A stretch of 64,000 bases of DNA from Paenisporosarcina sp. FSL H8-0542 (GTDB taxonomy: Bacteria > Bacillota > Bacilli > Bacillales_A > Planococcaceae), in the NCBI RefSeq assembly GCF_038632915.1, contig NZ_CP152050.1, positions 299,501-363,500 on the forward strand. Reading direction: 5' to 3'. How positions within the stretch are numbered: position 1 is the first letter of the stretch; the number at the start of each line of letters is the position of its first letter. The position numbers were made by a program, and so were the translations under genes. Below, in pieces: positions 4,254 to 23,817 of this stretch. The notes under the pieces were generated by a model. That model was not told the DNA's origin and searched no databases. It saw only the letters and a list, made by a program, of their open reading frames with translations.

Positions 4254-4255
4254 AA

Positions 4256-7962: not shown

Positions 7963-8725
7963 GAAAAAACATGAAGATCATGTTAATGAATCATGGCTGA
8001 TTCCTTATGCCGATATTTTGACGCTATTACTCGCTCTTTTCATCGTATTGTTTGCGGCAAGTGAAGTCGATTCACAGAAATTCAAGGAAATCTCAGAGTC
8101 ATTTAATAATGAGCTCCAAGGTGGGACAGGCATTCTGGACGAAGAAGCGGCTATCGAAATTATGACTGATACGTCCAAAATCTCCAAACTGGATGAGATT
8201 AAACCTGAAACTGGAGTGAAATCAGTAGCTGAAATAACCCTTGAGCAGGACCTTAAAGAACTCGGGGAACTCAGGGGGAAAATTGAAGTTTACATAAAAG
8301 ACAAGGGATTATCTACAAAAATTGAAACAGCTCTGACAAGCAAAGGGTTGGTGTTGAAGATAAAAGAAGGTGTACTTTATCCTTCGGGTAGTGCGGATAT
8401 AAACGAAGAATCAAGAACGATTGCGGTTGAGATTTCAAATTTACTGGTTACAGACCTACCACGGAACATTTATATTGATGGTCATACGGATAATATTCCG
8501 GCTAATTCAGAAGAGTTTCCATCAAACTGGGAATTGAGCGCTGCAAGGGCTATCAATTTCATGAAAATACTACTGGAAAATAAAAAGTTAGATCCGAAAG
8601 TATTCAGTGCAACCGGATACGGTGAGTACCGACCGATTACTTCAAATGACACTCCACAAGGCAGAGCAGAAAACCGCCGTGTGGAAGTTTTGATATCACC
8701 ATACAAGCAAGAAACTAACCACTGA
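7952..8725 (+). CDS. motB: Flagellar stator protein MotB
   Basis: One N-terminal membrane helix in 'WLIPYADILTLLLALFIVL' includes the Asp that binds the translocated ion. A linker follows, then an OmpA-like peptidoglycan-binding domain ('YIDGHTDNIP', 'NWELSAARA', 'GYGEYRPI', 'RAENRRVEVLI') at about residues 160-255. I chose TTG 7952: AGAAGG lies 8 bases upstream and the protein then begins MKRKKKHED, typical of MotB. It overlaps the motA stop by 11 bases, indicating translational coupling. The longer reading frame from 7916 lacks a ribosome site. Confidence 0.93.
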   Translation: MKRKKKHEDHVNESWLIPYADILTLLLALFIVLFAASEVDSQKFKEISESFNNELQGGTGILDEEAAIEIMTDTSKISKLDEIKPETGVKSVAEITLEQDLKELGELRGKIEVYIKDKGLSTKIETALTSKGLVLKIKEGVLYPSGSADINEESRTIAVEISNLLVTDLPRNIYIDGHTDNIPANSEEFPSNWELSAARAINFMKILLENKKLDPKVFSATGYGEYRPITSNDTPQGRAENRRVEVLISPYKQETNH

Positions 8726-8736
8726 AGAGGTGTATC

Positions 8737-9168
8737 ATGGGGAAAATGAAAGTTTTAGTCATCCTCTTCTTCGCTATCATTTTATTTGGCGGGGGAGCCA
8801 TGTTTTTTTTGAAAGAAGAAGTAATGGGCAAGGAAAATGAAAAGGAAAAAGAAATTTCAGCAGAAGAACTGGTTGAAATGAGTGTTGACACCGACGTCAT
8901 CACAACCAATCTAGCATCCGCCAACAATTTTGCGATTGTTCAGTTCAATATTTTGTTAAGTAGCAAGGAAACGAAAGAAGAGGCGGAAAAACGTAAACCT
9001 GAAGTACGCGCAGCCATCATTTCCACTGTTGCTGGCTTTACAAAGGACGAGTTAATTGGCAAGGAAGGCATTGTCAAACTTGAAAAGGAACTATCTACAA
9101 AACTTGAAAGTATTGTGGAAACAGGAGAAGTCGAACGGGTATTGGTAACGGAATTTAAATTACAATAA
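8737..9168 (+). CDS. fliL: Stator-associated protein FliL
   Basis: 143 residues with a short cytoplasmic N-terminus, one membrane helix ('VLVILFFAIILFGGGAMFFL', about 5-25) and a periplasm-facing SPFH/stomatin-like domain ('FAIVQFNILLSS', 'EKRKPEVRAAIISTV', 'VERVLVTEFKLQ'). FliL surrounds stator units and aids torque. In B. subtilis fliL lies in the fla/che operon between swrD and fliM. Here that spot is empty and fliL follows motB after 11 bases, a placement that fits its stator function. Confidence 0.9.
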   Translation: MGKMKVLVILFFAIILFGGGAMFFLKEEVMGKENEKEKEISAEELVEMSVDTDVITTNLASANNFAIVQFNILLSSKETKEEAEKRKPEVRAAIISTVAGFTKDELIGKEGIVKLEKELSTKLESIVETGEVERVLVTEFKLQ

Positions 9169-9181
9169 TTCGTATTTGTAC

Positions 9182-9208
9182 TAAACATTTTGTGAGAAGT
9201 GCCGATAT
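9182..9208 (+). promoter_or_regulatory. Sigma-D promoter upstream of yvyF-flgM
   Basis: TAAA at 9182-9185, 15 bases, then GCCGATAT at 9201-9208: a second perfect SigD consensus, starting just after fliL. It places flgM, encoding the SigD inhibitor, under SigD itself, as in B. subtilis. No terminator is visible between fliL and this promoter, so upstream transcripts may also read through. Confidence 0.92.
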
Positions 9209-9236
9209 ATACATTAGAAAGATTCAGGTGATTTAA

Positions 9237-9674
9237 ATGCAATCAGGTCAATTGGATAACTGCAGGATTTGTGGCAAATTGTTTCTCAGAGAGCATACAG
9301 ATTATTGCTTGAGCTGTTACAAAAAAACTGAGGACGATTTCAAACTGGTTGCCGACTTTTTAACAGACGAGAAAAATCGTTTTGCTACGATTGAAGAAGT
9401 AAGCATAGAAACGGATGTTTCATTGAAACAGGTTGCTGATTTCATTCGTGACGGTCGGATATTTGCGGAGGACTACCCGAACCTGGGTTACCGCTGTGCG
9501 CATTGTAGTAAAAAGATAAAAAGACAGTTGTTATGTGACGAGTGTTTCAATCAATTCTCATCTGAAATCAATCAAACCTTGAAAAGAGAAAATCTCCAAA
9601 ATGAGATTAGAAATAAACAAAATAAACAACCGACAAAAGTGAACACGCCACAATATTGGCAGTTAAAGAAATGA
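9237..9674 (+). CDS. yvyF: Flagellar operon protein YvyF family
   Basis: 145 residues with an N-terminal zinc-ribbon-like CxxC pair ('CRICGKLF', 'CLSCYKK'), a helical middle ('IEEVSIETDVSLKQVADFI') that resembles a small winged-helix, and a second Cys cluster ('CAHCSKKI', 'CDECFNQF'). This matches the YvyF/TIGR03826 family found at the head of flgM operons in Bacillales. Function is unknown; the Cys pairs suggest zinc binding. It lies 28 bases after the sigma-D promoter. Confidence 0.85.
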   Translation: MQSGQLDNCRICGKLFLREHTDYCLSCYKKTEDDFKLVADFLTDEKNRFATIEEVSIETDVSLKQVADFIRDGRIFAEDYPNLGYRCAHCSKKIKRQLLCDECFNQFSSEINQTLKRENLQNEIRNKQNKQPTKVNTPQYWQLKK

Positions 9675-9699
9675 AAATAAACGACAGGGCGGTGAAGGA

Positions 9700-9972
9700 A
9701 TGAATATCGATAAGACGACAGGTTCTTCCTTTATTCAATCTTATCAAAAACGAATGCAGGTCTCCCAAGTTGGCAAAACGAGACCATTGCAAAAAGAAGA
9801 CCAGCTTCAAATTTCAAATCAAGCAAAAGAGTTATTTGAAAAGAACACCGAAATAGATTTAGACAGACAAGAAAAAATCAGCACATTAAAGGCACGAATT
9901 CAGTCAGGTGAGTATCAAATTCACAATGATAAAGTGGCAGATAAAATCTATCAATTTTGGTTTGATAAATAG
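9700..9972 (+). CDS. flgM: Anti-sigma-D factor FlgM
   Basis: 90 residues. The C-terminal half carries the FlgM pattern ('LQISNQAKELFEK', 'RQEKISTLKARIQSGEYQI', 'KVADKIYQFWF') that binds the flagellar sigma factor and is exported once the hook is finished. In B. subtilis FlgM controls SigD in the cytoplasm. It lies between yvyF and flgN under the sigma-D promoter at 9182, giving a negative feedback loop on the sigD gene found at 35034. Confidence 0.93.
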   Translation: MNIDKTTGSSFIQSYQKRMQVSQVGKTRPLQKEDQLQISNQAKELFEKNTEIDLDRQEKISTLKARIQSGEYQIHNDKVADKIYQFWFDK

Positions 9973-10001
9973 ATGTTCGTCTATATAGAGGAGGGTGTCG
10001 G

Positions 10002-10484
10002 ATGCTTCAGTTAATCACGACGCTAAAAGAATTGATGGTAATACTGGAAAAACTCATCAACTTGGCGGAACGAAAGAAAGTTGTTTTAGTCGAACGAAAA
10101 GTGGACGAGTTGAATCAACTGGTACAAGAGGAAGCAAAGATTATAAAACAGCTCAATCAAGTAGATCAGGAGCGTGAACAGCTGGTTGAAAGTGTGATGC
10201 AAAATCATCCTTCTCTTAGTTTCAGTCAATTTGTAGAACAACTTCCAGATGAACTTACGAGGAAAAATCTACAATCAAAATTGAAAACATTACAACAGCT
10301 CATGATGGAGCTGCATGATATAAATAAAGTAAATGAGTCACTAATTGAAGACTCAGTGAATTTTGTTCAACATATGATCGAACACATTACTAAGTCAAAA
10401 CAACAACACTTCAATTATCAATCTCCTATAGGTCAACAAAAATCACAAACAAGCAATCGGGGCTTTTTCGATACAAAAGCTTGA
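10002..10484 (+). CDS. flgN: Hook-associated protein chaperone FlgN
   Basis: 160 residues, all-helical coiled coil ('LITTLKELMVILEKLINLAERKK', 'LVQEEAKIIKQLNQVDQERE', 'LQSKLKTLQQLMMELHDINKVN'), fitting the FlgN/YvyG family that escorts FlgK and FlgL to the export gate. GAGGAGGGTG precedes ATG 10002. It is placed directly before its clients flgK and flgL, as in B. subtilis. Confidence 0.88.
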   Translation: MLQLITTLKELMVILEKLINLAERKKVVLVERKVDELNQLVQEEAKIIKQLNQVDQEREQLVESVMQNHPSLSFSQFVEQLPDELTRKNLQSKLKTLQQLMMELHDINKVNESLIEDSVNFVQHMIEHITKSKQQHFNYQSPIGQQKSQTSNRGFFDTKA

Positions 10485-10509
10485 TTGACGTTAGAAGGTA
10501 GGGAATAAG

Positions 10510-11808
10510 ATGGTTTCAACATTTCACGGATTAGAGGTTGGGAAGCGCGGATTAATGATGGGGCAGGCAAGAATTGCAACAACAGGTCACAATATTGCCA
10601 ATGCAAATACCAGAGGCTACTCACGTCAACAAGTGAATGCATCCACTTCCCCTTTTCTAAACATTTGGACAAGTGGTACGGTCAACCCTGGCCAACTTGG
10701 TACTGGGGTCTCATTGGACTCCATTACTCGTGTGAGAGACAAGTTTTTAGACGGAAAATTTCGTGAGCAATACGCAAAACTAGGTGAAGCATCCGTCAAA
10801 CAAGAAACACTTGATCAACTTGAAACGATTATCAATGAACCAAGCGAAACGGGATTAAGTTCTTCAATGGATCAACTGTGGGGAGCTTGGCAAGACTTGG
10901 CGAATGATCCGGATAGCCTTTCCGCTAAAGCAGTAATCAAAGAAAGAGCACAGGCATTCATCGATACCGCGCAAGCTATGGATAGTGCAATGACAGGTGC
11001 TAAAGCGGACTTGGATAACCAATTGACTGCGAAAATTAAAGAAGCGAACGGTTATTTGGAGCAAATTGCCCAGTTGAACGACAGCATCAAACGCAATGGT
11101 ACGCAGGCGAATGATTTATTGGATAAGCGAGATGTACTTGTTGAAGAACTATCGAAAATTGTGGATATTAAAGTTGCCGACCAAACAGACGGAACTTATA
11201 AAATCAGCTTAAGCTCTGGTGAAACACTAGTTGATGGATCAGCTGTTAATGAGCTTGCCACTGTAGCTGATAGTGATCCAACTACTACTGAAGTTATTGT
11301 TAGTGATTTAGTCGGAGGCGAATTATCCGGTATCCTTAAATCGTTAGAAACGGTTGATGAGTACCAAGCGAACCTGAACAAAATTGTCAATGATTTTGTC
11401 CAGGCAAACCAGATGTCATCAACTGATCCCAACGTACCTGGAGAAAATCTATTCAGTGGGAATACGATTGCTTCACTTAAAGTCAATCCGTTAATTGAAT
11501 CTGATAGTAGCCAAATTACTTCTTTGATTCCGGGCAATGAGCAAAAATACAAGAGCGTAAACAATGAATACCGAGCGCTTGTTAGTGAGCTTGGGGCGGA
11601 AAGCCAAACGGCCATCCGCAATGTGGCAAACTATGAAGCAACCTTGCTAGCGACAGATAGCCGTCGTCAATCGATAACGGGTGTTTCACTAGATGAAGAA
11701 ATGGCTAATTTAGTTCAGTACCAACATTCATATAGTGCTGCAGCAAGAATGATTTCAACGACGGATCAGATGCTCGATACAATCATCAACCGCATGGCTG
11801 CACGTTGA
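10510..11808 (+). CDS. flgK: Hook-filament junction protein FlgK (HAP1)
   Basis: 432 residues. The N-terminus 'GLEVGKRGLMMGQARIATTGHNIANANTRGYSRQQV' (reported here in part: residues 6-40) is the flagellar rod/hook family signature, and the C-terminus 'DEEMANLVQYQHSYSAAARM' with 'ISTTDQMLDTIINRM' is the FlgK-type terminal coiled coil. It is shorter than B. subtilis FlgK (about 507), mainly in the variable middle domain. FlgK joins hook to filament. Confidence 0.94.
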   Translation: MVSTFHGLEVGKRGLMMGQARIATTGHNIANANTRGYSRQQVNASTSPFLNIWTSGTVNPGQLGTGVSLDSITRVRDKFLDGKFREQYAKLGEASVKQETLDQLETIINEPSETGLSSSMDQLWGAWQDLANDPDSLSAKAVIKERAQAFIDTAQAMDSAMTGAKADLDNQLTAKIKEANGYLEQIAQLNDSIKRNGTQANDLLDKRDVLVEELSKIVDIKVADQTDGTYKISLSSGETLVDGSAVNELATVADSDPTTTEVIVSDLVGGELSGILKSLETVDEYQANLNKIVNDFVQANQMSSTDPNVPGENLFSGNTIASLKVNPLIESDSSQITSLIPGNEQKYKSVNNEYRALVSELGAESQTAIRNVANYEATLLATDSRRQSITGVSLDEEMANLVQYQHSYSAAARMISTTDQMLDTIINRMAAR

Positions 11809-11833
11809 TGAAGTGCATGGGAGGAAAATGATG

Positions 11834-12715
11834 ATGAGAGTTACACAGCAAATGTTACATCAAAATTCAGTTCGCCATATGAATCAGAACTTGAGTCGAC
11901 TGGAAAAAACTAATAATCAAGTGACGACAGGCAAACAGCTACACCGCCCATCTGATGATCCGAATGGCGTAAGTAAGGCTATGAACCTGAAAAGTGCACT
12001 TGTTGCTAATGATCAATTTGAACGTAATACTAATGAAGCTAACCTTTGGTTGGATGAATCAGGTCAGACGATTAACGAAATGGTTAATGCCATGCAGAAA
12101 GTACGTGAACTAGGAGTCCAAGGAGATAGCGGGACTCTTTCGGATTCTGATCGAAATATTATTGCAATAGAAGTGGAAGAATTGACCGAGCAAATTCGTC
12201 AATTTGCCAATTCAAAAGTAAACGGCAAATATATATTCAATGGTTTAAAAACGGATGAGCCTCCTTATCCCAATAAAAATTCCTATCAAATTGATACATT
12301 TGATACGAGTGCCAAAATGTTTACGATTGCGGATGGCGTAGCAGTAAAAGCAAATGTCACTGCCGATGAGTTATTTGGAAATGCTGCTGATAATACCAAT
12401 TTGTTTAACACATTGAATTTACTAGCTTCAGATCTTCGTTCGGGTTCTGACATTCAGATGGATCAAATCGATAAAGGCATCAATCGAATGTTAACTGTAG
12501 CTTCAGAAGCGGGCGCAAGAAAGAATCGCGTTGAAGGAATTGAAAACCGGATTCAAGACAGCAATATTGAACTTAAGTCCATGTTATCAAAGCTGGAAGA
12601 TGCGAATTATGCAGAAGCCGTTACGAAGTTGAAAAGTGAAGAGAGTGTCTATCAGGCAAGTCTTGCTGCTTCAGCAAAAATCATACAACAAACTTTGATG
12701 GACTTTCTAAGATAA
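11834..12715 (+). CDS. flgL: Hook-filament junction protein FlgL (HAP3)
   Basis: 293 residues starting 'MRVTQQMLHQNSVRHMNQNL', followed by 'LEKTNNQVTTGKQLHRPSDDP', the flagellin-like N-terminal domain of FlgL. The C-terminal coiled coil ends 'AASAKIIQQTLMDFL'. Three ATG codons run in tandem (11828, 11831, 11834); I take the last because GGGAGG lies 9 bases upstream and it gives the family N-terminus. In B. subtilis yviE, fliW, csrA and hag follow; here the operon ends at a terminator interrupted by a mobile element. Confidence 0.94.
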   Translation: MRVTQQMLHQNSVRHMNQNLSRLEKTNNQVTTGKQLHRPSDDPNGVSKAMNLKSALVANDQFERNTNEANLWLDESGQTINEMVNAMQKVRELGVQGDSGTLSDSDRNIIAIEVEELTEQIRQFANSKVNGKYIFNGLKTDEPPYPNKNSYQIDTFDTSAKMFTIADGVAVKANVTADELFGNAADNTNLFNTLNLLASDLRSGSDIQMDQIDKGINRMLTVASEAGARKNRVEGIENRIQDSNIELKSMLSKLEDANYAEAVTKLKSEESVYQASLAASAKIIQQTLMDFLR

Positions 12716-12720
12716 ATAAT

Positions 12721-12752
12721 AAGGAGCATTCGCCATAGGTGAGTGCCTTTTT
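12721..12752 (+). terminator. Decayed left copy of the flgL terminator
   Basis: AAGGAGCATTCGCCAT at 12721-12736 repeats exactly the start of the intact terminator at 13337. Its second arm (GTGAGTGCC) has lost full pairing, but a T-run remains at 12748-12752, where the element A end begins. I read it as the target-site copy left of the insertion. Confidence 0.7.
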
Positions 12753-13334
12753 CAGCTTGTTGAGAAAAGAATATTAATCAAAATAAAAGTATAAAAATTC
12801 GCATTCTTATCTCTCTTTCGAAAAATATTATGGTCGGCTATTTCTTTCGCTTTCCGCGGACGAAACGCTAGCCTCCTCGGCTCAGCTGTCAATGACAGCT
12901 GAGCCTGTGGGGTCTAGCTTATTTCGTTTTTCCGCAGGAGTATTCAGAAATAGACGACCATCTTACTAATGAAATAATATGAAGAGATACGCAAACAGAA
13001 GCGAAATCCGTTGATTGGAGTGGAGGCGGTGGAAAACCCCGCAGGAAACGAATAGTGCAAGTGTAAGTTTGCACTATTCGTTTGCGACGAAGCTAGCGAA
13101 GCGATCCAACGTACTTTCATGTTTCGAAGCTAGCGAAGCGATGCAGAAACAGAAACAGGAGCAATGTATACTGCGTCGAGTAACCGCAGGCGCACCGGTT
13201 TTTCTAGTGACAAGGAGACTAAAGCCGTGCCCGCGAAACGCGTCCGCCGCAAAGGAAATCAACATTTTCTTGCATACGTTCTTTTTCATTAGTATTCAGT
13301 TATAATCACTCTATTTATTTTTTGTCTACAGTCT
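12753..13334 (+). mobile_element. Terminator-associated non-coding element, copy A (582 bp, internally expanded)
   Basis: The left end CAGCTTGTTGA and right end TTTGTCTACAGTCT form imperfect terminal inverted repeats. The sequence is closely related to 37736-38192 (inverted) and 50652-51104. It contains two inverted copies of a structured module; the first has a perfect 10-bp hairpin at 12881-12903. No credible gene is present: small open frames here are not conserved among copies. Relative to copy C, about 130 extra bases sit near 13040-13205, with a 15-bp perfect hairpin and an 18-bp direct repeat (13088-13105, 13125-13142). It is flanked by copies of the flgL terminator. Confidence 0.85.
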
Positions 13335-13336
13335 AT

Positions 13337-13372
13337 AAGGAGCATTCGCCATATGGTGAATGCTCCTTTTTT
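13337..13372 (+). terminator. Intact flgL terminator (right copy)
   Basis: AAGGAGCATTC (13337-13347) pairs perfectly with GAATGCTCCTT (about 13358-13368), extended inward by CCAT/ATGG, followed by six T. It lies immediately right of element A and shares its first 16 bases with 12721-12736. Confidence 0.88.
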
Positions 13373-13424
13373 GAATTTACATATTGGGTGAACGAAAATA
13401 AAACTTCATAGGAAAATTTAACAA

Positions 13425-13470
13425 TAGAAAAAAGGATGGGATTAATGACAAAGTCACTAAACCCATCCTT
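13425..13470 (-). terminator. Terminator of flhO-flhP
   Basis: On the minus strand AAGGATGGG pairs with CCCATCCTT (plus-strand arms 13432-13440 and 13462-13470), followed by T-rich sequence (plus-strand AGAAAAAA before 13432). It lies 10 bases after the flhP stop codon. Confidence 0.85.
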
Positions 13471-13479
13471 CTATTTAAC

Positions 13480-14310
13480 TTATGATTTCATTGTATTGAC
13501 TAAGCCCATCATATCATCCGCAAATGATATTGCTCTTCCTTGGGATTGCAGCAATCGTTGAGTGGAAATTAATTCGGTCATTTCATCAGTCAAATCAACA
13601 TTGGACATTTCGAGTGCCCCTTGCGTGATTCGGAACGAACCATCATTGTTTCCAATTTGAAGGGTACCGTTTGCTACTTGATTTGCTTCCGTTCCAGGAA
13701 GTTGATAACGGTTAGCTCCGATTTTTTCGAGAAGGTTCGGTCTGTTAATTTGAGCAATACTCAACTGGATTTGGGTTGGCTGTTTTGAAGGATTCCGATA
13801 AGACACTTCAAGTGTTCCGTTTTCCGTTACTTTGATGTTGTTATAATCTCCATCAAAAACAATCGGGCGGTTATTGCTATCGAGAACAGAGTCTCCAGAA
13901 GACGTAACCAAGTTTACTTGGTTAGAATTCAGGACTGGCTGAACTTGAAATGATCCATCTTTTGTATAGTATGTTTTTCCTTCGGAAGCCACGCGGAAAA
14001 ATGCATCATTTCCCTGAATCATGAAGTCAAGAGGGCGATCTGTTTTTTTCATGGACCCTTGTTCAGTCCGAATCGACGTCTGGGTAATGATTGCACCAGA
14101 ACCAACTCGAAGACCGTTCGGCGTGATTCGGCCAATTTCGTTGTGAGTTCCGGCTTGCTTTACAATGGATTGGTAAAGGGCATCAGAAAAGTTCGCTTCC
14201 TGACGTTTGTACCCGTTTGTATTTAAATTGGAAATATTATTAGCAATGATATCAATTTTTTTCTGCAATTCACGCATGGATGTTGTGGCGGAAATCATTT
14301 GGATACTCAT
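13480..14310 (-). CDS. flhP: Flagellar distal rod protein FlhP
   Basis: 276 residues of the FlgG/FlgF rod family. The N-terminus 'KKIDIIANNISNLNTNGYKR' (about 16-35) and the C-terminus 'EMSNVDLTDEMTELISTQR' are the conserved coiled ends. 'PLDFMIQGNDAFFRV' marks the central fold. In B. subtilis FlhO and FlhP form the rod together with FlgB, FlgC and FliE. It follows flhO by 14 bases on the minus strand. The pair is divergent from the flgB operon, whereas in B. subtilis it lies elsewhere, near mbl. Confidence 0.9.
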   Translation of the reverse strand: MSIQMISATTSMRELQKKIDIIANNISNLNTNGYKRQEANFSDALYQSIVKQAGTHNEIGRITPNGLRVGSGAIITQTSIRTEQGSMKKTDRPLDFMIQGNDAFFRVASEGKTYYTKDGSFQVQPVLNSNQVNLVTSSGDSVLDSNNRPIVFDGDYNNIKVTENGTLEVSYRNPSKQPTQIQLSIAQINRPNLLEKIGANRYQLPGTEANQVANGTLQIGNNDGSFRITQGALEMSNVDLTDEMTELISTQRLLQSQGRAISFADDMMGLVNTMKS

Positions 14311-14324
14311 GTATTCATACCTCC

Positions 14325-15167
14325 TTAGTAAATACGGCCAATCTCATTGACTGCTTTTTCCATGCTGCGGTCATAGGCCTGTATGACTTTTTGATTCGAT
14401 TCGAAACCACGATAAGTGTTCATCATTTCCGTCATTGTTTGAGTCAGATCCACATTGGATTGTTCGATAAATCCTTGTTTGACGAAGGAACCGGTTAAGC
14501 CTGCACCTTCAATGGACTGAGGACCGTCTGCCGGATTTCCTTCCCAGCGTAATAATCCCTGACCCTGTTTAACTAATTGTTCAGGCTGTTCGGTATACCC
14601 AAGCCATAGACGATTTGTAGCGGAACCATTTTGTAGAATAATCTGGCCATCTTCTTGAACTGTAAATTCTTTTGAGTTCACTTGGATAGGTTGCAAGTTT
14701 TGATTCAAGACATTGTAACCGTCACTCGTTTTCAGGAAGCCGTTTTGATCAACTGAAAATTGTCCATTTCGTGTATACCGGACTTGGTCATTTTCCAGTC
14801 CAACTGCAAATACAAGAGAACCCTTTTTTTGAGTGACCGGATTCACGGGCAAACTTTCATCAAGAAGAGCAAAGTCTGTTGTATTTCCTGTGTCTTTTAG
14901 TGGTCCTTGAAGAAATGAAGGAATTCCTTCCTGTGTATATACGCCTGTATTTAAAGTGCCCACAGTAGATTGACCCATTTTCATGGTACCGCCAGTCGTG
15001 CTTTTCATTTCCATTGCTTTTATCAATTGTTCAGGAAACGCACGCAAGACATTTTGATCTTGTTTAAATCCAGGAGTACCCGCATTGGCTAAATTATTTG
15101 TCAAAATTTGTTGTTTTCTGTTATTTGCCATCATACCTGATGTGGCAGTATATAAACCACGAAACAT
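14325..15167 (-). CDS. flhO: Flagellar proximal rod protein FlhO
   Basis: 280 residues. 'MFRGLYTATSGMMANNRKQQ' then 'ILTNNLANAGTPGFKQDQ' is the rod/hook signature, and 'IEQSNVDLTQTMTEMMNTYR' with 'NQKVIQAYDRSMEKA' is the C-terminal motif. It belongs to the FlgF/FlgG-like family; FlhO is chosen over FlhP because it is first in the pair and by overall resemblance. GAAAGGAAG precedes ATG 15167. Upstream lies the inverted repeat TTATGC-GTTA-GCATAA (15203-15218), possibly part of its promoter control. Confidence 0.88.
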   Translation of the reverse strand: MFRGLYTATSGMMANNRKQQILTNNLANAGTPGFKQDQNVLRAFPEQLIKAMEMKSTTGGTMKMGQSTVGTLNTGVYTQEGIPSFLQGPLKDTGNTTDFALLDESLPVNPVTQKKGSLVFAVGLENDQVRYTRNGQFSVDQNGFLKTSDGYNVLNQNLQPIQVNSKEFTVQEDGQIILQNGSATNRLWLGYTEQPEQLVKQGQGLLRWEGNPADGPQSIEGAGLTGSFVKQGFIEQSNVDLTQTMTEMMNTYRGFESNQKVIQAYDRSMEKAVNEIGRIY

Positions 15168-15353: not shown

Positions 15354-15382
15354 ATGACACGATATGACAATTAGATTAAAAT
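15354..15382 (+). promoter_or_regulatory. Sigma-A type promoter of the flgB operon
   Basis: The -35 ATGACA (15354-15359), a 17-base spacer and -10 TAAAAT (15377-15382) predict a start near 15389, precisely where the riboswitch aptamer begins. The -35 is embedded in three ATATGAC repeats spaced 10-11 bases apart (15342, 15352, 15362), a likely regulator site. No sigma-D consensus is seen in this region. Confidence 0.65.
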
Positions 15383-15387: not shown

Positions 15388-15502
15388 GTTTTTATCATAC
15401 CGATAACGGCAAACTTATTCGAAAGATAAGGACGCAAAGCCACGGGCCTAAGTGAAATCGATAGGGCAGCCGGGTTACCGAAGATGGAAGCTTTTAAAGT
15501 TA
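15388..15502 (+). promoter_or_regulatory. Cyclic-di-GMP class I (GEMM) riboswitch in the flgB leader
   Basis: The conserved GEMM core is visible: GGCAAAC (15408-15414), a hairpin capped by a GAAA tetraloop (15421-15424), GGACGCAAAGCC (15430-15441), GGGCCTAA, TAGGGCAGCCGGG and GGTTACCGAAG (about 15472-15483). The closing P1 helix can form between 15388-15395 and 15484-15491 (8 pairs, three of them G-U). The same 3' arm (15481-15488) can instead pair with the left arm of the downstream terminator (15503-15510, 7 of 8 pairs). That mutually exclusive pairing predicts that bound cyclic-di-GMP stabilises P1, frees the terminator and turns the operon off. The family match is recognition of the consensus; no covariance search was run. 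Confidence 0.9.
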
Positions 15503-15530
15503 TCCACCTTTAATTAAAGGTGGATTTTTA
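15503..15530 (+). terminator. Riboswitch-controlled intrinsic terminator before flgB
   Basis: TCCACCTTT (15503-15511), loop AATT, AAAGGTGGA (15516-15524), then TTTTTA. The stem is perfect, lies 36 bases before the flgB start and directly follows the aptamer. It is the expression platform through which the aptamer would control the 22-kb operon. Confidence 0.9.
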
Positions 15531-15565: not shown

Positions 15566-15967
15566 ATGAAACTATTTCCTCAATCTTTTCAGTCATTGGA
15601 GCAGGCATTATCAAATGCCACATTAAAGCAACGAGTTCACTCGGCTAATATCGCAAATGTCGATACACCCAATTACAAGAGCAAGCAAGTGAGTTTCAAG
15701 TCTACATTGAATGATGCAATCAATAACCAAAGCATGTCCAGTTACAAAACAAATGCAAAACATATTTCTTTCAGCAGTGAATCGTCTAATTTTAATCCGA
15801 CCATAAAAGAAAATAAGTCCACACAATTCAATCCTAATGGAAACAATGTAGATATGGACTATGAAATGGCAGAGTTAGCCAAAAATCAACTATGGTATAA
15901 CGCCGTAACGGAAAGAGTGAACGGCAAATTCAACAGTTTACGAACAGTAATCAATGATGGGAGGTAG
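15566..15967 (+). CDS. flgB: Flagellar proximal rod protein FlgB
   Basis: 133 residues; 'HSANIANVDTPNYKSKQVSF' at about 26-45 is the FlgB motif, and the C-terminus 'MDYEMAELAKNQLWYNAV' is typical. FlgB is a rod subunit near the export gate. It is the first gene of the large operon, 36 bases after the riboswitch terminator, with a GGGGGGT ribosome site. In B. subtilis codY precedes flgB; here the divergent flhO does. Confidence 0.94.
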   Translation: MKLFPQSFQSLEQALSNATLKQRVHSANIANVDTPNYKSKQVSFKSTLNDAINNQSMSSYKTNAKHISFSSESSNFNPTIKENKSTQFNPNGNNVDMDYEMAELAKNQLWYNAVTERVNGKFNSLRTVINDGR

Positions 15968-15972: not shown

Positions 15973-16428
15973 ATGAGCTTATTTAATGGTTTTAATATCA
16001 GTGCATCAGGGTTAACGGCGAATCGTATGCGAATGGACGTTGTTTCTTCAAATATTGCCAATGCCAACACGACTCGTTCGCAACTTGTAAACGGCGAATG
16101 GGTACCTTATCGTCGGAAATCTGTGGAGTTATCACAAAGCGGGGTATCACCATTTCAACAGCAACTTCAATCGGCAATGAATAATCAGTCTTCTAAAGTT
16201 TCGGGAGTTACTGTTTCAAAAATTGATGAAGATAAAGCACCATTTACACTTTCCTATGATCCTTCTCATCCTGATGCTGACGAGGACGGGTATGTTCGAT
16301 TGCCAAATGTTGATCCGATAAAAGAAATGGTCGATCTCATGTCTGCAACACGTTCATACGAAGCGAATATTACAGTATTGAACGCTTCAAAGAATATGTT
16401 CATAAAAGCTTTGGAGATTGGTAAATAA
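15973..16428 (+). CDS. flgC: Flagellar rod protein FlgC
   Basis: 151 residues; 'GFNISASGLTANRMRMDVVS' and 'NIANANTTRS' open the protein, and 'KEMVDLMSATRSYEANITVL' then 'KNMFIKALEIGK' close it, as in FlgC. It follows flgB by 5 bases, within a GGGAGG ribosome site overlapping the flgB end. Confidence 0.95.
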   Translation: MSLFNGFNISASGLTANRMRMDVVSSNIANANTTRSQLVNGEWVPYRRKSVELSQSGVSPFQQQLQSAMNNQSSKVSGVTVSKIDEDKAPFTLSYDPSHPDADEDGYVRLPNVDPIKEMVDLMSATRSYEANITVLNASKNMFIKALEIGK

Positions 16429-16453
16429 TCTATCAGATTGCTAGGGAGGCACT

Positions 16454-16750
16454 ATGGATAAATTAAGCTTGATTCAAACACCATTTATACAAAACCAATC
16501 AATCTCAAAACAAAAGCCTGAAGATAAGGTGGAAGGTTTTGGTCAACTATTTAAACAAAAGCTCGAAGAAGTAAACACCGCACAGAACACATCGGATAAA
16601 CTGACCAACCAATTGGTAACGGGTGAAGTAAAGGATGTCCATGAAGTGATGATTGCTTCACAAAAGGCAAGTCTTTCTTTGCAACTTACCGTTCAAGTAC
16701 GAAACAAGGTTGTTGAAGCTTACCAAGAAGTGATGAGAATGCAACTATGA
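16454..16750 (+). CDS. fliE: Rod-MS ring junction protein FliE
   Basis: 98 residues. The C-terminal helices 'VHEVMIASQKASLSLQLTVQ' and 'VRNKVVEAYQEVMRMQL' match FliE, which links the MS ring to the rod and is among the first flagellar export substrates. Order flgB-flgC-fliE-fliF is as in B. subtilis. Confidence 0.95.
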   Translation: MDKLSLIQTPFIQNQSISKQKPEDKVEGFGQLFKQKLEEVNTAQNTSDKLTNQLVTGEVKDVHEVMIASQKASLSLQLTVQVRNKVVEAYQEVMRMQL

Positions 16751-16772
16751 TTTTTAGGGTGAGATGAGATAA

Positions 16773-18416
16773 ATGAAAGAAAAGATATTGGATTATAAAA
16801 ACAAAATAATAGAATCATGGGGCAGTTTTTCTCCAAAAATAAAATGGTCTGTGGCCGGCACATTTTTTATCACATTACTTTTACTTTTTGTATTTGTTTT
16901 TTTTAACTCTCGCCCAAGTTTTGCGGCGCTATATACTGGTTTGTCTCCTTCAGAGGCTGGTGAAATCAAGACGGCAATCGAAGAACAAGGTATACCAGTA
17001 CAAGTTTCATCTGATGGGAAGTCGATCAGTGTTCCAAATGAAGAAGTGGCCAACTTAAAAGTCAGTTTGGCAGCAGACGGCATTCCGAAAAGCGGGAACG
17101 TAAACTACAGCATCTTCAGTGAAAATATGGGGTTGGGAATGACAGATCGTCATTTTGATGTAGTGGAACGAGACGCAATGCAAAACGAACTTGCTGATTT
17201 GGTTAAGCAAATTGATGGCGTAACCGAAGCAAACGTAATGATCACACTTCCAAAAGAAAATGTTTGGATATCGGATGAAGAACAAGTGGCAACTGCATCT
17301 GTTGTTGTAAAAGGTGATCCATCCTTTCAACTAGATCAGAAGCAAGTCAATGGTCTGTATCATCTAATCAGTAAAAGTGTACCCAATTTGCCTCAAGAAG
17401 AAATTGTCATAATGGATCAAAATGGTCAGGTTTTCGAGATTCAAAAAGAAAACCAACTGGATACGGCCTTATCTGTCTATCAACAGCAACGGGAAATCAA
17501 AAAGGATATTGAACGAGATATACAGCGTGAACTGCAACAAATGCTGGGATTGACACTGGGACATGACAAAGTGGTCGTGTCAGTCATGACAACGATTGAC
17601 TTCACCAAGGAAAAGCGGGAAGAAAACCTGGTTGAAGCCGTGGATAAAGAAAAGAATGAAGGCATCGATATCAGTGTAGAAAGAATTAAGGAGTCCTATT
17701 CGAGTGAAGGGGAGGCTATTGCTGATGCAACGGGGACTGGAGAGACTGAAATCGCCAATTACCCCGGGGTTGATGGTGAGGGGAATACGAAATCCGATAA
17801 AACGGAAGAACGTATCAATCGTGAAGTCAATCGAATCAACCGCCAAATTGAATTGAGTCCATATGTCATAGATGACATAACAATCAATGTTGGAGTTGAA
17901 CCTCCCAATCCTGAAAATCCTGATAGCTTAACACAACAAAATATAGATGATATCAGCAATCTCTTGAAAAACGCGGTAAGTACTTCATTAAGCATGAATG
18001 GAACGCAAGTGACGGAAGAAGCGCTGGATGACCGTATATCAGTATTTGCAACGGAGTTCCAAGGAAAACCTGTGGTTGACGGTGAAGCACAGGGTGAATC
18101 TTTGTTGTCAATGAACAATATCTCGAACCCACTGTTTTGGATTATCGTTGGGGGTGTTGTCCTACTTCTGATTCTGATAGTTTTAATCTTCATAATCCGT
18201 AAAAGGAAGCGTGAAAGCATGGAGGAAGAAGAAGAATATGTTCTTGATATGTTTAATCAACCTATCGAAAAAGTCAGCAACTTTGAAGAAGCTGAGGTTG
18301 ACCTATCCGAGTTCAATACAAAAGCAAATCCTAAGAGAAAAACGATTGAAAAGCTTGCTACAGGTAGACCTGAAGACTTTGCTAAATTGTTACGCTCTTG
18401 GATGGCAGATGAGTAG
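16773..18416 (+). CDS. fliF: Flagellar MS-ring protein FliF
   Basis: 547 residues with two membrane helices (about 26-46 and 450-472), ring-building motifs between them ('SRPSFAALYTGLSPSEAGEI', 'EQGIPVQVSSDGKSISVP', 'VVERDAMQNELADL'), and a C-terminal cytoplasmic tail ending 'PEDFAKLLRSWMADE' that docks FliG. Between about residues 300 and 345 lies the glycine/glutamate-rich flexible loop. FliF is the first assembled membrane ring. Confidence 0.96.
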   Translation: MKEKILDYKNKIIESWGSFSPKIKWSVAGTFFITLLLLFVFVFFNSRPSFAALYTGLSPSEAGEIKTAIEEQGIPVQVSSDGKSISVPNEEVANLKVSLAADGIPKSGNVNYSIFSENMGLGMTDRHFDVVERDAMQNELADLVKQIDGVTEANVMITLPKENVWISDEEQVATASVVVKGDPSFQLDQKQVNGLYHLISKSVPNLPQEEIVIMDQNGQVFEIQKENQLDTALSVYQQQREIKKDIERDIQRELQQMLGLTLGHDKVVVSVMTTIDFTKEKREENLVEAVDKEKNEGIDISVERIKESYSSEGEAIADATGTGETEIANYPGVDGEGNTKSDKTEERINREVNRINRQIELSPYVIDDITINVGVEPPNPENPDSLTQQNIDDISNLLKNAVSTSLSMNGTQVTEEALDDRISVFATEFQGKPVVDGEAQGESLLSMNNISNPLFWIIVGGVVLLLILIVLIFIIRKRKRESMEEEEEYVLDMFNQPIEKVSNFEEAEVDLSEFNTKANPKRKTIEKLATGRPEDFAKLLRSWMADE

Positions 18417-18427
18417 GAGGGTGACAC

Positions 18428-19441
18428 ATGGCTAAAAATGCAAGAGAGCTAAGTGGGATACAAAAAGTTGCCGTATTGTTAGTGGGATTGGGACCGGACG
18501 TGTCTGTGGAAATTTTTAAACAGTTGACGGAACAAGAAATTGATCAAGTAACAATGGAAATTTCAAATATACGACAATTAAAAAACAGTCAAACAGAACA
18601 GGTAATCGATGAATTTTATGAAATGATTCTTGCCCAAGATTATATGAATGAAGGCGGCCTGGAATATGCAAAGGATATTCTTGAAAAAGCGCTAGGTAAA
18701 GAAAAGGCAATGGATGCAATTGGCAGATTAACGAGCAGGTTGCAAGTTAAACCTTTCAGTTTCGCAAGAAGAGCAGATCCGAATCAAATCTTGAATATTT
18801 TACAGCATGAACATTCACAAACGATTGCACTAGTACTATCGTATTTGGAACCAAAGCAATCATCGCAAATCCTTTCTGCACTGCCTCCTGAAAAGCAAGC
18901 AGAAGTAGCAAGGAGGATTGCCTTAATGGAGAGTACTTCGCCTGAGGTTATTCATCAGGTTGAACAAATTCTTGAGAGAAAGCTTTCGGCTACTGGATCA
19001 CAAGATTACACATCTACCGGTGGTGTAGAAGCAATTGTTAGAGTGCTAAGTAAAGTGGATCGTGGTACCGAGAAAGCTATTCTTTCTAAGCTGGAAACCG
19101 AAACTCCTGATCTTGTTGCAGAAATCAAGAAGCGGATGTTTGTATTTGAAGACATCGTGAACTTGGACACACGTGCCATTCAACGTGTCATTCGTGAAGT
19201 TAATGATGCAGATTTAACTTACGCACTGAAAGTAGCAAGTGATGAAGTGAAGGATACGGTTTATACCAATATGTCTACAAGACGGGCAGATCTGATCCGC
19301 GAAGAAATTGGATTAATGGGTCCTGTGAAACTCAAAGACGTAGAAGACGCACAAACAAACATTGTTACGTTGATTCGTAGTTTAGAAGAAAAAGGCGAAA
19401 TCATTGTGGCCCGTGGTGAAGGGAATGAAGTGATTGTCTAA
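18428..19441 (+). CDS. fliG: Flagellar motor switch/rotor protein FliG
   Basis: 337 residues. The N-terminal domain 'GIQKVAVLLVGLGPDVSVEI', the middle domain 'HEHSQTIALVLSYLEPKQSS' and the C-terminal torque domain 'FEDIVNLDTRAIQRVIREV' with 'SDEVKDTVYTNMSTRRADLI' are all present. The conserved charged residues for MotA contact are retained, so torque generation appears intact. The stop codon overlaps the start of fliH. Confidence 0.96.
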   Translation: MAKNARELSGIQKVAVLLVGLGPDVSVEIFKQLTEQEIDQVTMEISNIRQLKNSQTEQVIDEFYEMILAQDYMNEGGLEYAKDILEKALGKEKAMDAIGRLTSRLQVKPFSFARRADPNQILNILQHEHSQTIALVLSYLEPKQSSQILSALPPEKQAEVARRIALMESTSPEVIHQVEQILERKLSATGSQDYTSTGGVEAIVRVLSKVDRGTEKAILSKLETETPDLVAEIKKRMFVFEDIVNLDTRAIQRVIREVNDADLTYALKVASDEVKDTVYTNMSTRRADLIREEIGLMGPVKLKDVEDAQTNIVTLIRSLEEKGEIIVARGEGNEVIV

Positions 19442-20231
19442 TATCATTCGCTCGCATTCGCTCCCGACCAATGAAAAGAAAATAATTCATACAAAAAAAA
19501 TAGAAAGCAAAACATTGGCCTTGAATGAACAAGAACCTGATCCAGTTTTGCAGAAGAAACAGTTGTTAATGGAAATCGAAGCATTGGAAACACAGTACGG
19601 AGAACTTCAAAAGCAAATGAATAATGAAATGGAAAGTGCCCGAGTGGAAATTGACCACTGGTGGTCAGAAAAGCAAGATGAAGCGGTGCAGGAAGCTAGA
19701 AGAATGGCAGAAGCAGCATCTGAACAAGGTTTTCAAGCGGGATTTGAGCAGGGCAAGCTGTTAGCGGAAGAAGAATTCCGGCAAAGACGCGAGGAAATGC
19801 ATGTATTGATAGAGACGGCTTACGAAGAAAAGGCAAAAATTGTTCAGGAATCTGAGTCGTTCTTATTGTCACTCAGCGTTAGAGTGGCTGAGAAAGTTAT
19901 CAAAAAAGAATTGAAGCAGCATGATGACCAGTTACTGAACGTCGTAAAGCAAGCCTTAAAGCATATAGAAGAGTCAGAGGATGTCACTATGCAAGTATCG
20001 CTTGAAGATTATCCGATAATTTTACCGTTTCTAGAAGAGTTAAAGACCTATGTAAAAGCTGACTCAGAGTTTAAATTGGTTCCGGTTGCCAACCTTTCCA
20101 AAGGTGGCTGTATGATTCATACGGCAAGTGGTTCTTATGATGTCACGATTGACAGTCAGCTGCAGGAGATTAAAAAGCACTTACTGGCTTATTGTGAGGA
20201 GAAAACCAACGATGAACCTAAGGGAAGATGA
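19434..20231 (+). CDS. fliH: Flagellar export ATPase regulator FliH
   Basis: 265 residues with a long charged coiled coil (about 30-150; 'EQGFQAGFEQGKLLAEEEFR' is the FliH GxxxG-type segment) and a C-terminal V-ATPase-E-like domain ('VRVAEKVIKKELKQHDDQLL', 'ESEDVTMQVSLEDYP'). FliH binds FliI and anchors it to the C ring. The TTG start at 19434 overlaps the fliG end by 8 bases. The downstream fliI ATG also overlaps. Confidence 0.9.
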   Translation: MSNIIRSHSLPTNEKKIIHTKKIESKTLALNEQEPDPVLQKKQLLMEIEALETQYGELQKQMNNEMESARVEIDHWWSEKQDEAVQEARRMAEAASEQGFQAGFEQGKLLAEEEFRQRREEMHVLIETAYEEKAKIVQESESFLLSLSVRVAEKVIKKELKQHDDQLLNVVKQALKHIEESEDVTMQVSLEDYPIILPFLEELKTYVKADSEFKLVPVANLSKGGCMIHTASGSYDVTIDSQLQEIKKHLLAYCEEKTNDEPKGR

Positions 20232-21534
20232 ATACCTCGAATTATTGGAAGAGATTGAGCCAGTAAAAAAGCATGGGAAAGTGATTCAAGTTATCGGCCT
20301 GACCATTGAATCAAGAGGACCATATGCAAAAATTGGAGAACTTTGTCTGTTGTATCCGAACCACTATGAGCGGCCAATTGAAGCTGAAGTGGTCGGCTTC
20401 AAAGAAAACAAAATTTTACTTATGCCGTTGAAGGACGTATCTCAAATAGGTCCAGGATGCCTGGTTGTTGCAACCGGATATCCACTCCAAATCAAAGTGG
20501 GACCATCCATTTTAGGAAAAGTTCTCGATGGAACGGGCCAGCCGTTGGATGAAAACATACTTCCGAAAGGGTTGAAGAAATATTCAACCAATAATACACC
20601 ACCGAATCCATTGAAAAGACCGAGAATCGATAAACCATTGGAAGTTGGTGTAAGAGCCATTGATGGACTATTGACAGTTGGACAAGGCCAGCGCGTTGGT
20701 GTGTTTGCAGGAAGTGGCGTCGGAAAAAGTACATTGCTTGGTATGATTGCCCGCAATACAGAAGCTGACGTCAATGTAATTGCCCTGATAGGTGAGCGGG
20801 GCAGGGAAGTTCGAGATTTCATTGAACGCGACCTTGGTCCTGAGGGGTTAAAAAAGTCGGTCGTCGTTGCGGCAACTTCCGATCAGACGCCATTACAACG
20901 AATAAAAGGTGCTATGACGGCTACAGCCATTGCGGAATATTTCCGTGATCAAGGAAAAAACGTCATGTTGATGATGGACTCGGTGACACGCTTTGCTATG
21001 GCACAACGTGAAGTGGGACTAGCAGTTGGCGAGCCACCAACAAGTAAAGGATACACACCAAGTGTTTTTGCACTGCTGCCAAAATTGCTGGAACGTTCCG
21101 GAACGTCTAACAAGGGTTCGATTACCGCTTTCTATACAGTGCTGGTTGATGGAGACGATATGAACGAACCAATTGCCGATGCTGTCCGAGGTATTCTAGA
21201 TGGACATATTGTATTGGATCGGAAAATAGCTCAAAAAGGTCAATTCCCGGCAATCAATATTATGTCGAGTGTCAGTCGGGTCATGCATGATGTTGTATCA
21301 GACGAGCACCAAAAGGCAGCTGTTGAATTCAAAAGATTGTTGGCAGCTTATGATGCATCGGAAGATCTGATTAATATTGGCGCTTACAAAAGCGGAGCCA
21401 ACAAAGAAATAGATGATGCCATCCGTTCCTATCCACTGATAAAAGAATTCTTGCAACAAGATATTTATGAAAAGACAAAGCTGGAAGAGAGTATCGACCG
21501 GCTATCAGCGCAATTTGGGGGAGCACAGACGTGA
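20212..21534 (+). CDS. fliI: Flagellum-specific ATPase FliI
   Basis: 440 residues. Walker A 'GSGVGKSTLLG', the FliI/F1-type 'GERGREVRDFI' and Walker B 'VMLMMDSVTRFAMAQREV' are visible, plus the 'GSITAFYTVLVDGDD' segment. FliI energises unfolding of export substrates. I took ATG 20212 (GTGAGGAG 10 bases upstream, family N-terminus 'MNLREDEYLELLEEIEPV'), not the in-frame codon at 20128 inside fliH. It overlaps fliH by 20 bases. Confidence 0.96.
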   Translation: MNLREDEYLELLEEIEPVKKHGKVIQVIGLTIESRGPYAKIGELCLLYPNHYERPIEAEVVGFKENKILLMPLKDVSQIGPGCLVVATGYPLQIKVGPSILGKVLDGTGQPLDENILPKGLKKYSTNNTPPNPLKRPRIDKPLEVGVRAIDGLLTVGQGQRVGVFAGSGVGKSTLLGMIARNTEADVNVIALIGERGREVRDFIERDLGPEGLKKSVVVAATSDQTPLQRIKGAMTATAIAEYFRDQGKNVMLMMDSVTRFAMAQREVGLAVGEPPTSKGYTPSVFALLPKLLERSGTSNKGSITAFYTVLVDGDDMNEPIADAVRGILDGHIVLDRKIAQKGQFPAINIMSSVSRVMHDVVSDEHQKAAVEFKRLLAAYDASEDLINIGAYKSGANKEIDDAIRSYPLIKEFLQQDIYEKTKLEESIDRLSAQFGGAQT

Positions 21535-21995
21535 CGCAATTCAACTTTAGATTTCAAAAAATATTGGATTTAAAAGAGAATGAAAAAGGCTTGGCGCAAA
21601 TGGAAATGGCGGATGCCATCAAACAACAAGAAATAGGCCATCGAAAAAAAGAAGCAATTCATAAAAAAATTATGGATGCAGAACGTTTGAAAAAAGAAAA
21701 ACAGAAGGATGGAGTCAACATTTCGGAATTAAGAATGTTGGTCAATTATATCCATCAACTTCAGGAGCTATTGATTTCCTTGAATCGCGAGCTGGAGCAT
21801 TTGCAGAACAATGTGTCGAGAACACAAACTCATTTGCAAAAGAAAGCTCAAGAAGAAAAGACATGGGGAAATCTAAAGCAACAAGAACTTACTATATATG
21901 TTGAGCAAAGCAAAATGGCAGAACAGAATTTCTTCGATGAATTGGCAAGTACAAGATTTTACCGAACAACACAAGCTAGTTTAGCTGAAGGGTGA
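21531..21995 (+). CDS. fliJ: Flagellar export protein FliJ
   Basis: 154 residues of continuous coiled coil starting 'MTQFNFRFQKILDLKENEKG', the FliJ signature. It couples FliI to FlhA in the export gate. The start is GTG 21531, overlapping the fliI stop (GTGA). In B. subtilis ylxF, a MotE-like gene, follows; here fliK follows directly after 7 bases. Confidence 0.92.
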   Translation: MTQFNFRFQKILDLKENEKGLAQMEMADAIKQQEIGHRKKEAIHKKIMDAERLKKEKQKDGVNISELRMLVNYIHQLQELLISLNRELEHLQNNVSRTQTHLQKKAQEEKTWGNLKQQELTIYVEQSKMAEQNFFDELASTRFYRTTQASLAEG

Positions 21996-22002
21996 TGAAA
22001 AA

Positions 22003-23334
22003 ATGGAAACTATGAGTTTATCTATTCCTTCCAACATTTCAACTTCAAAGCCCATTGCATCAAAACAAAGTAGTGGGTCAGCCACGGTGAATTTCGCTGC
22101 ACTATTAGGTTCTGTAGCTGCAGAAGGACAAAGTGCAAGCGAAGAAAAAGTAAATGTAAATCAACAGGAAGCACTGCTGGAAAAACTTCAGGATATGTTG
22201 CAAACCTTGCAGGAAATACCGAAAGAAAATTTGTCACCCGAAGAGCAGGAAATGATGTATGTAATCGTACAGATGCTTTCTCTTCAAACGGTTCAAATAG
22301 AAAACCAGCTACATAGTGTCGAGCCTGGCCAAGTGATGAGTGATTCAGTTCAGGAAAAACTGATAAATCTGCTGAACCAGATCGATCAGGAAATTCAAAA
22401 ACAATCAACTGTTACTAAATCATTCGAAGCCACTGCAGAACTTGTGGGGGTAGAAGAAAATATTTTAGCTGATCCGAAAAAATTAGAGCAGGCATTTAAA
22501 CAATTGGTCGCCTTTATCCAGCAACTTGATAACGACCAGCAGGCTATTACAGGAAAACAACAGCAAAATGAAGTGGCAAAAATAATTAAACAAATGGACA
22601 GTTTTACACAACAACCAACTGACCAAACACAGTTAACTGAACCTCCAAGGAATAATGGACTGATTGTAAACACTTCACGACCACTATCAACACAATCTAT
22701 TTCACAGCTTCAACAATTGGATGGTAACGCTGCACGAGCGGAACCTGTTCCAACTGAAGTGAATGGACAAGTTTTAACTGGCACTGCATCGGAAGTCGCA
22801 AAAGCTAGCCAAGCTCCAACGCGCCCGGAAGCAAGTGCACCACCAGCACCCACGGTTCGTATGTCAAACCTGATTGAAGAGTTAGGTGGGGTGCTGAAAG
22901 GTTCTTTCCGTTTGAATGGCACGCAAGAAGGAACGCAAATAAAAGTGAACATCTTTCCAGAACATCTCGGACATCTGGATATTCGTTTGACAGCTTCAGA
23001 AGGAAAGATTGCAGCCCAAATTTTCACCAGTAACTTACTGGCTAAAGAGGCGTTGGAACTTCAAGTGAATCAGTTAAGAAATTCATTGCTTCAGCAGGGT
23101 GTAACGCTTGATCGTATTGAAATATCGCAACAGAGTTCGCAGCCATCATTTGGACAACAAAACGCACACCCAGATCAGCGTTTTTCACAACAACAACAAC
23201 AGCAACAACAACAACAGCAAAAGCAAGGAAACGCATCACACAATAAAAACGGCTATCAACGAATTGAAGAAGAAGCCGCTGTAGAACGTTACCATTCGTC
23301 AGAGGGATTAATGAAAGTAGATTATACAATATAA
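22003..23334 (+). CDS. fliK: Flagellar hook-length control protein FliK
   Basis: 443 residues. The N-terminal two-thirds is low-complexity and Q/E/T-rich as in FliK. A Flg_hook domain lies at about 290-370 ('LGGVLKGSFRLNG', 'IKVNIFPEHLGHLDIRLTA', 'LEISQ'-type end 'VTLDRIEISQQ'). It is followed by a pure glutamine run encoded by CAA/CAG codons at about 23187-23221. FliK measures hook length and switches FlhB specificity. Confidence 0.9.
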   Translation: METMSLSIPSNISTSKPIASKQSSGSATVNFAALLGSVAAEGQSASEEKVNVNQQEALLEKLQDMLQTLQEIPKENLSPEEQEMMYVIVQMLSLQTVQIENQLHSVEPGQVMSDSVQEKLINLLNQIDQEIQKQSTVTKSFEATAELVGVEENILADPKKLEQAFKQLVAFIQQLDNDQQAITGKQQQNEVAKIIKQMDSFTQQPTDQTQLTEPPRNNGLIVNTSRPLSTQSISQLQQLDGNAARAEPVPTEVNGQVLTGTASEVAKASQAPTRPEASAPPAPTVRMSNLIEELGGVLKGSFRLNGTQEGTQIKVNIFPEHLGHLDIRLTASEGKIAAQIFTSNLLAKEALELQVNQLRNSLLQQGVTLDRIEISQQSSQPSFGQQNAHPDQRFSQQQQQQQQQQQKQGNASHNKNGYQRIEEEAAVERYHSSEGLMKVDYTI

Positions 23335-23352
23335 CGAGGAAGGGGCATTGCA

Positions 23353-23817
23353 ATGAATGTGAATAGTTCTAGCACGGTCAAAATGCCGACGGCAGGCGCA
23401 ACAATGCACACAGAGCCACAAAATGGACTTGGTAAAGATGCTTTCATGCAAATCCTTGTGACACAAATGAAGAACCAGAATCCATTGGAGCCGATGAAAG
23501 ATACGGAATTCATCGGACAGATGGCTCAGTTCAGCAGTTTGGAACAGTTAACAAACTTGAATCAGGCAATGAATCTGTTTATTGGTCTTCAATGGAGACA
23601 GTCACTATCCGAAAACGCTGATTTAATTGGTAACAAGGTGTATTGGGAGCGGGAAGTAAACGGAGAGTTGCAGTCAGGTGAGGGGATTGTCAAGGGACTG
23701 GAAATCGTAAATGGGGAGTTAATAGTCGAGCTTGAGGATAACGTCAAGGTTCCAATCGACTCAATCCATCGTATTGAAAAAGAGTCAAAAACAATAAATG
23801 AACAGGAAATTGTCTAA
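23353..23817 (+). CDS. flgD: Hook-capping protein FlgD
   Basis: 154 residues: 'LGKDAFMQILVTQMKNQNPL' and 'MKDTEFIGQMAQFSSLEQ' are the FlgD N-terminal motif, needed for the hook cap. The protein ends with a short Tudor-like segment ('LIGNKVYWERE', 'GIVKGLEIVNGELIVELED'), shorter than Gram-negative FlgD but normal for Bacillales YlxG-type proteins. Confidence 0.93.
   Translation: MNVNSSSTVKMPTAGATMHTEPQNGLGKDAFMQILVTQMKNQNPLEPMKDTEFIGQMAQFSSLEQLTNLNQAMNLFIGLQWRQSLSENADLIGNKVYWEREVNGELQSGEGIVKGLEIVNGELIVELEDNVKVPIDSIHRIEKESKTINEQEIV

Follow-up and report, generated by a model that had tools for sequence, protein, structure and literature searches.

The window analysed here, a stretch of 64,000 nucleotides from Paenisporosarcina sp. 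FSL H8-0542, carries a long run of flagellar genes on the forward strand, beginning with flgB and continuing through sigD (Table 1). From the start of flgB to the end of sigD the run measures 20.2 kb; it measures 21.6 kb if the three genes that follow sigD are included. The product of flhG is MinD-like. In the interval between flgB and sigD neither terminator-like nor promoter-like sites occur above the level found in shuffled sequences, and flgB through sigD are probably co-transcribed. However, the interval from flhG to sigD contains a structured repeat of some 300 bp, and for this reason we infer, rather than observe, read-through into sigD. The sequence-only reading had set the flagellar target at about 22 kb including sigD: the run of genes is as long as supposed, but its continuity past the repeat is presumed.

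Several further features of the locus deserve mention. The repeat between flhG and sigD is strongly structured, and similar copies are present in the flagellar loci of many relatives. Upstream of the run lies a compact flagellar block (3525–15167) comprising a glucosaminidase gene, flaG, fliD, fliS, motA, motB, fliL, flgN, flgK and flgL, together with a divergent flgF/flgG pair. Two related 19-mers in opposite orientation, at 13229–13247 (-) and 37824–37842 (+), flank the block that extends from flgG/flgF through flgB to the PilZ-domain gene. The latter, which encodes a putative c-di-GMP receptor, also follows sigD in a Planococcus genome (G096); it was not found in genomes G172 or G025. Both the PilZ gene that ends the run and the missing chemotaxis genes of operon and genome, discussed below, are additional to the sequence-only reading.

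Table 1. Features of the flgB leader and operon (window coordinates).
Feature	Position	Strand	Basis
Candidate sigma-A promoter, ATGACA-N17-TAAAAT	15354–15382	+	consensus scan, 10/12 matches
P1 5' strand (GTTTTTATC), at predicted transcript start; extendable to 15385	15388–15396	+	pairs with 15483–15491 (to 15494)
c-di-GMP-I (GEMM-I) aptamer	15398–15482	+	RF01051; G20 = 15408, A47 = 15436, C92 = 15478
Antiterminator hairpin (ligand-free, ON state, predicted)	15480–15511	+	lowest-energy fold, transcripts ending 15510–15518
Segment shared by the two folds: 3' strand of P1 or 5' strand of antiterminator	15483–15494	+	folding, strand-swap comparison
Intrinsic terminator: perfect 10-bp stem, then U tract	15502–15530	+	folding, terminator scan
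flgB, first operon gene	15566–15967	+	TIGR01396, above cut-off
flgC fliE fliF fliG fliH fliI fliJ fliK flgD flgG/E fliM fliY fliO/Z fliP fliQ fliR flhB flhA flhF flhG	15973–34659	+	NCBIfam, Pfam
Repeat-like insertion between flhG and sigD	34660–34990	+	matches in many flagellar loci of relatives
sigD (FliA/WhiG sigma factor)	35019–35810	+	TIGR02479, above cut-off
DUF6115 gene, DUF327 gene, PilZ-domain gene (36814–37173), end of run	35835–37173	+	Pfam: DUF327 E 3e-33, PilZ E 9e-9

The leader of flgB contains a c-di-GMP-I aptamer. A cmscan search against Rfam gave a match to RF01051 with a score of 75.8 bits and an E value of 4.2e-13, the gathering score being 35. The match spans the full model (positions 1–87 of 87) and is the sole Rfam match within the 64-kb window; B. 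subtilis is one of the control genomes that contain no RF01051 match. The sequence-only reading had recognized a GEMM-I core by its motifs and had named an Rfam covariance search as the means of checking it. The search confirms the assignment, and the motifs lie where they were said to lie: GGCAAAC at 15408, GGACGCAAAGCC at 15430 and GGTTACCG at 15473–15480, with P2 capped by a GAAA tetraloop (15421–15424). One strand of the P3 tetraloop receptor reads CCTAAG; the opposite strand, as aligned by the covariance model, reads GATAGG instead of TATGG.

The letters that contact the ligand indicate which ligand this is likely to be. In the structure of the V. cholerae riboswitch the contacts are G20, A47 and C92 (PMC9049102, PMC11218506); with the numbering transferred by hand from these published contacts, all three letters are intact in the window, and c-di-GMP is the presumed ligand. 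In GEMM-I aptamers an A at position 20 can allow binding of 3',3'-cGAMP, as reported for a G20A mutant and for a Geobacter riboswitch, and A20 is found in the flgB leaders of some relatives, namely seven Planococcus leaders and that of Paenisporosarcina sp. OV554 (L081, L099, L100, L103–L107). That the leader in the window responds to cGAMP or another cyclic dinucleotide is nonetheless exceedingly unlikely: it carries the c-di-GMP set of letters, and has G where GEMM-Ib has A20. For the A20-bearing relatives themselves the case for cGAMP sensing also found no support: in three carriers, those GGDEF domains that could be read have D or N and not the serine of promiscuous cyclases. The genome of the window encodes 14 GGDEF and 6 EAL domains, the domains that make and break c-di-GMP.

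The spacing of a candidate sigma-A promoter fits a transcript start at about 15388–15390, at the beginning of the 5' strand of P1. Promoter-like sites are, however, no more common here than in shuffled sequences (two found, compared to 1.7), and this start is therefore plausible only. The earlier claim that the aptamer begins at the predicted start thus holds with respect to spacing, but the promoter that defines the start is a consensus match at chance level.

P1 comprises nine pairs (15388–15396 with 15483–15491), or twelve if extended. Downstream of the aptamer is the perfect intrinsic terminator that the sequence-only reading had described: its stem (15502–15525) forms all ten of ten possible pairs around a 4-nt loop and is followed by a T-rich tail, and the terminator scan found one such site compared to 0.2 expected in shuffles. 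Folding of growing transcripts reveals two mutually exclusive states, which share the segment 15483–15494: either P1 and the terminator are formed, or the antiterminator. In transcripts that reach as far as about 15506, P1 is part of the best fold provided that the start is at 15385 or earlier. With a 3' end at 15510–15518 the most stable structure is the antiterminator, in which the 3' strand of P1 is engaged together with the 5' terminator arm. In transcripts that contain the whole right arm of the terminator, P1 plus terminator is favored over the antiterminator (-34.7 versus -23.0 kcal/mol for a start at 15389), and this is true of starts at 15383, 15385, 15388 or 15389. If the transcript begins at 15390 instead, the terminator is predicted without P1; the exact start therefore matters. 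The energies were computed without ligand or kinetics, and for the full-length transcript thermodynamics prefers the terminator even when no ligand is present; the ON state must therefore be a kinetic outcome. As to the earlier claims, the mutual exclusivity of the terminator is upheld both by folding and by the comparison of species given below. The specific pairing proposed (15481–15488 with 15503–15510) is real, but it includes one A–C mismatch and forms part of a longer hairpin, the antiterminator of Table 1.

These folds suggest how the leader may operate. RNA polymerase would start near 15388 and make the aptamer. When c-di-GMP is low, the segment 15483–15494 would leave P1 and pair with the terminator's 5' arm, and the resulting antiterminator would allow flgB and the genes as far as sigD to be transcribed. 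At high c-di-GMP, bound ligand would keep both the aptamer and P1 folded; the 5' arm of the terminator would then be available for the hairpin 15502–15525, and the transcript, about 140 nt long, would end near 15530.

The likely direction of control follows from the shared segment. P1 and the antiterminator need one and the same stretch of RNA, so that a ligand which stabilizes P1 is predicted to favor termination (OFF). It might be argued that the aptamer is real but that its ligand favors read-through, given that class I riboswitches run in both directions and that Bc2 acts as an ON switch for the cap adhesin (PMC6366702). We regard this as quite unlikely, because a stabilized P1 must favor the terminator if its segment is also that of the antiterminator; moreover, folding disclosed no other anti-antiterminator, and the flgB riboswitch of C. 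difficile is an OFF switch. The OFF polarity advanced by the sequence-only reading is backed by the covariance model, by the folding of growing transcripts and by the comparison across species, with ligand-dependent termination in the cell being the presumed step. On this footing the leader is very probably a c-di-GMP-I transcriptional OFF switch that heads the flgB operon in the manner of Cd1 of C. difficile.

The sequence-only reading had suggested that flgB leaders in related genomes be surveyed. The 30 flgB loci closest to that of the window were drawn from a survey of the family and read; aptamer and terminator are both present in 25. The comparisons used 24 distinct aptamer-bearing sequences, the genome of the same species being identical. 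A strand-swap test replaced pair counting; the MAFFT alignment misplaces some terminator arms. P1 strands fit their own partners better than partners swapped between species, with just one of 20,000 permutations as good, and the same is true of the antiterminator strands (119 of 20,000), although the sequences are related and, with relatedness ignored, both figures are optimistic. In the remaining five loci (P. indica and the P. halocryophilus group; L051, L057, L063, L064 and L065) the terminator is retained, whereas the aptamer, of which remnants are visible in some, and the antiterminator are lost. Relative to shuffles, the antiterminator energy has a mean z of -1.2 (range -0.2 to -2.4) in leaders with an aptamer and of +0.1 in the five without; the two groups do not overlap (Mann–Whitney p 6e-4, a value that ignores relatedness and is likewise optimistic). 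The antiterminator is thus favored where the aptamer is present, and not where it is absent.

The existence of leaders with a terminator only raises the question of whether the leader in the window might itself be decayed or unresponsive, and now serve as a fixed attenuator or be bypassed. There is precedent in Bc1 of B. thuringiensis, a conserved c-di-GMP-I leader that is unresponsive in vivo (PMC11218506). We give this possibility little chance: the aptamer retains its high score and its contact letters, P1 is 9–12 bp in length, and the antiterminator ranks near the top of those compared. A working OFF switch remains the preferred reading.

The riboswitch precedes flgB in 29 of 80 named loci, at a distance of 70–80 nt (about 130 nt in one). 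Carriers belong to Paenisporosarcina, Planococcus/Planomicrobium, Sporosarcina jiandibaonis, Mesobacillus campisalis and two Bacillus sp. Mapped onto a tree of FlgB–FlgC–FliE, this distribution needs three state changes, compared to 24.7 expected when labels are shuffled. A single gain and two losses would account for this number, although the tree itself does not separate gain from loss. As judged from these sequences, the riboswitch is inherited together with one flagellar lineage, and spread by gene transfer is plausible. The nearest FlgB record, from Paenisporosarcina sp. HGH0030, is 100% identical to the FlgB of the window.

The operon that this riboswitch heads differs from the fla/che operon of B. 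subtilis. The core gene order from flgB to sigD is the same, but in B. subtilis che genes lie between flhG and sigD, and in the window there are none. A B. subtilis-like flgB–sigD arrangement has been reported for B. methanolicus (PMC4342826). The gap between flhG and sigD in the window is 360 nt and holds the structured repeat where the other type of operon has cheBAWCD. In genome G002 the gap is 5.5 kb, and its open reading frames, judged by eye from their translations, read as cheB, cheA, cheW, cheC and cheD; in G096, G172 and G025 the gap is 22–58 nt.

The absence extends beyond the operon. The CheW domain (PF01584), which the control search detects in B. subtilis and E. coli, gave no match in the genome of the window; given that CheA also carries a CheW domain, the genome has neither CheA nor CheW. 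We use che-less in this sense, as defined solely by the CheW domain in genomes of the family. Counts from the genome searches refer to the matches listed, which leave out some weaker ones, and a survey aimed at the whole order drew genomes of this family alone and contributed little more. Among 261 genomes of the family, 236 have FlgB, which falls into two types: 45 genomes have a protein with 53–100% identity to that of the window, and in 191 the identity is 51% or less. By hand tally, CheW is present in all 191 genomes of the other type and in none of the 45 of the window's type (Fisher p ~1e-49, relatedness ignored). The contrast is also seen within genus groups (G002 versus the genome of the window; G024 versus G025; G172 versus the rest of g17). 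The riboswitch stands at flgB in at least 36 of the 45, again by hand tally, with its position resolved in all but G118 and G022. In the Chryseomicrobium group (FlgB 53–56% identical) there is no riboswitch at flgB, and no CheW in the counterparts G020–G022, which suggests that the loss of che may predate the riboswitch.

Another c-di-GMP-I riboswitch, which scores 65.2 bits and has a terminator of its own, is located 18 kb upstream of the flgB leader and 2.6 kb before the window (L017 11808–11898; G000:C1:296807–296897). It sits between a flagellin gene and a gene of some 1,940 codons, which encodes a giant surface protein with fn3 and Ig-like domains and ends at position 3294 of the window. 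P1 of this riboswitch (GUG/CAC or GUG/CGC) barely overlaps its own antiterminator, and neither direction of control is singled out. A search of the genome for c-di-GMP-II riboswitches gave no match, but neither did its control, so that the result carries no weight.

The closest known system is Cd1 (Cdi1_3) of C. difficile, in which c-di-GMP stops transcription of the flgB operon, sigD included, leaving a truncated transcript of about 160 nt (PMC3649979, PMC6366702). Cd1 and the present leader share the aptamer class, a terminator after the aptamer, and an operon of more than 20 kb that has flgB first and includes sigD; the OFF logic is proved for Cd1 and predicted here (PMC6366702, PMC3649979). 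Cd1 belongs to a different bacterial class, and its transcript starts 496 bp before flgB, compared to a predicted 176 nt or so in the window. Bc1 and Bc2 of the Bacillus cereus group resemble the leader in aptamer class, in belonging to Bacillales and in having terminators that control read-through, but they precede mcpE (a chemoreceptor gene) and cap (a collagen adhesin gene) rather than a flagellar operon, and they differ in behavior, Bc2 being ON and Bc1 unresponsive in vivo (PMC11218506, PMC6366702). Vc2 of Vibrio cholerae has the same G20, A47, C92 and GAAA loop as the aptamer in the window, but acts without control of transcription termination (PMC6366702). Our searches of open-access papers turned up no description of a c-di-GMP riboswitch from Planococcus, and none of che-less flagella in that genus. 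The type of sensor and the Cd1 arrangement are known; what appears to be new, within the open literature searched, is the lineage and the che-less setting.

A broader interpretation can be offered tentatively, and we hold it to be somewhat less probable than its negation. A separate che-less module, mostly headed by a c-di-GMP OFF riboswitch and sometimes trailed by a PilZ gene, may have spread among Planococcaceae and to some Bacillaceae, where it stands in for the classic fla/che operon. Cells devoid of the chemotaxis kinase pathway would then decide by way of a second messenger whether flagella are made at all, and the giant surface protein encoded upstream would be subject to a second riboswitch for the same signal.

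With this leader, C. difficile is joined by a second lineage of Bacillota whose entire early flagellar operon, sigma factor included, is headed by a c-di-GMP riboswitch. The lack of CheW domains makes this lineage a natural setting for a decision on motility that is made without chemotaxis. In addition, the set of species, with aptamers intact, altered (A20) or lost on one and the same operon, provides a test bed for the evolution of such switches.
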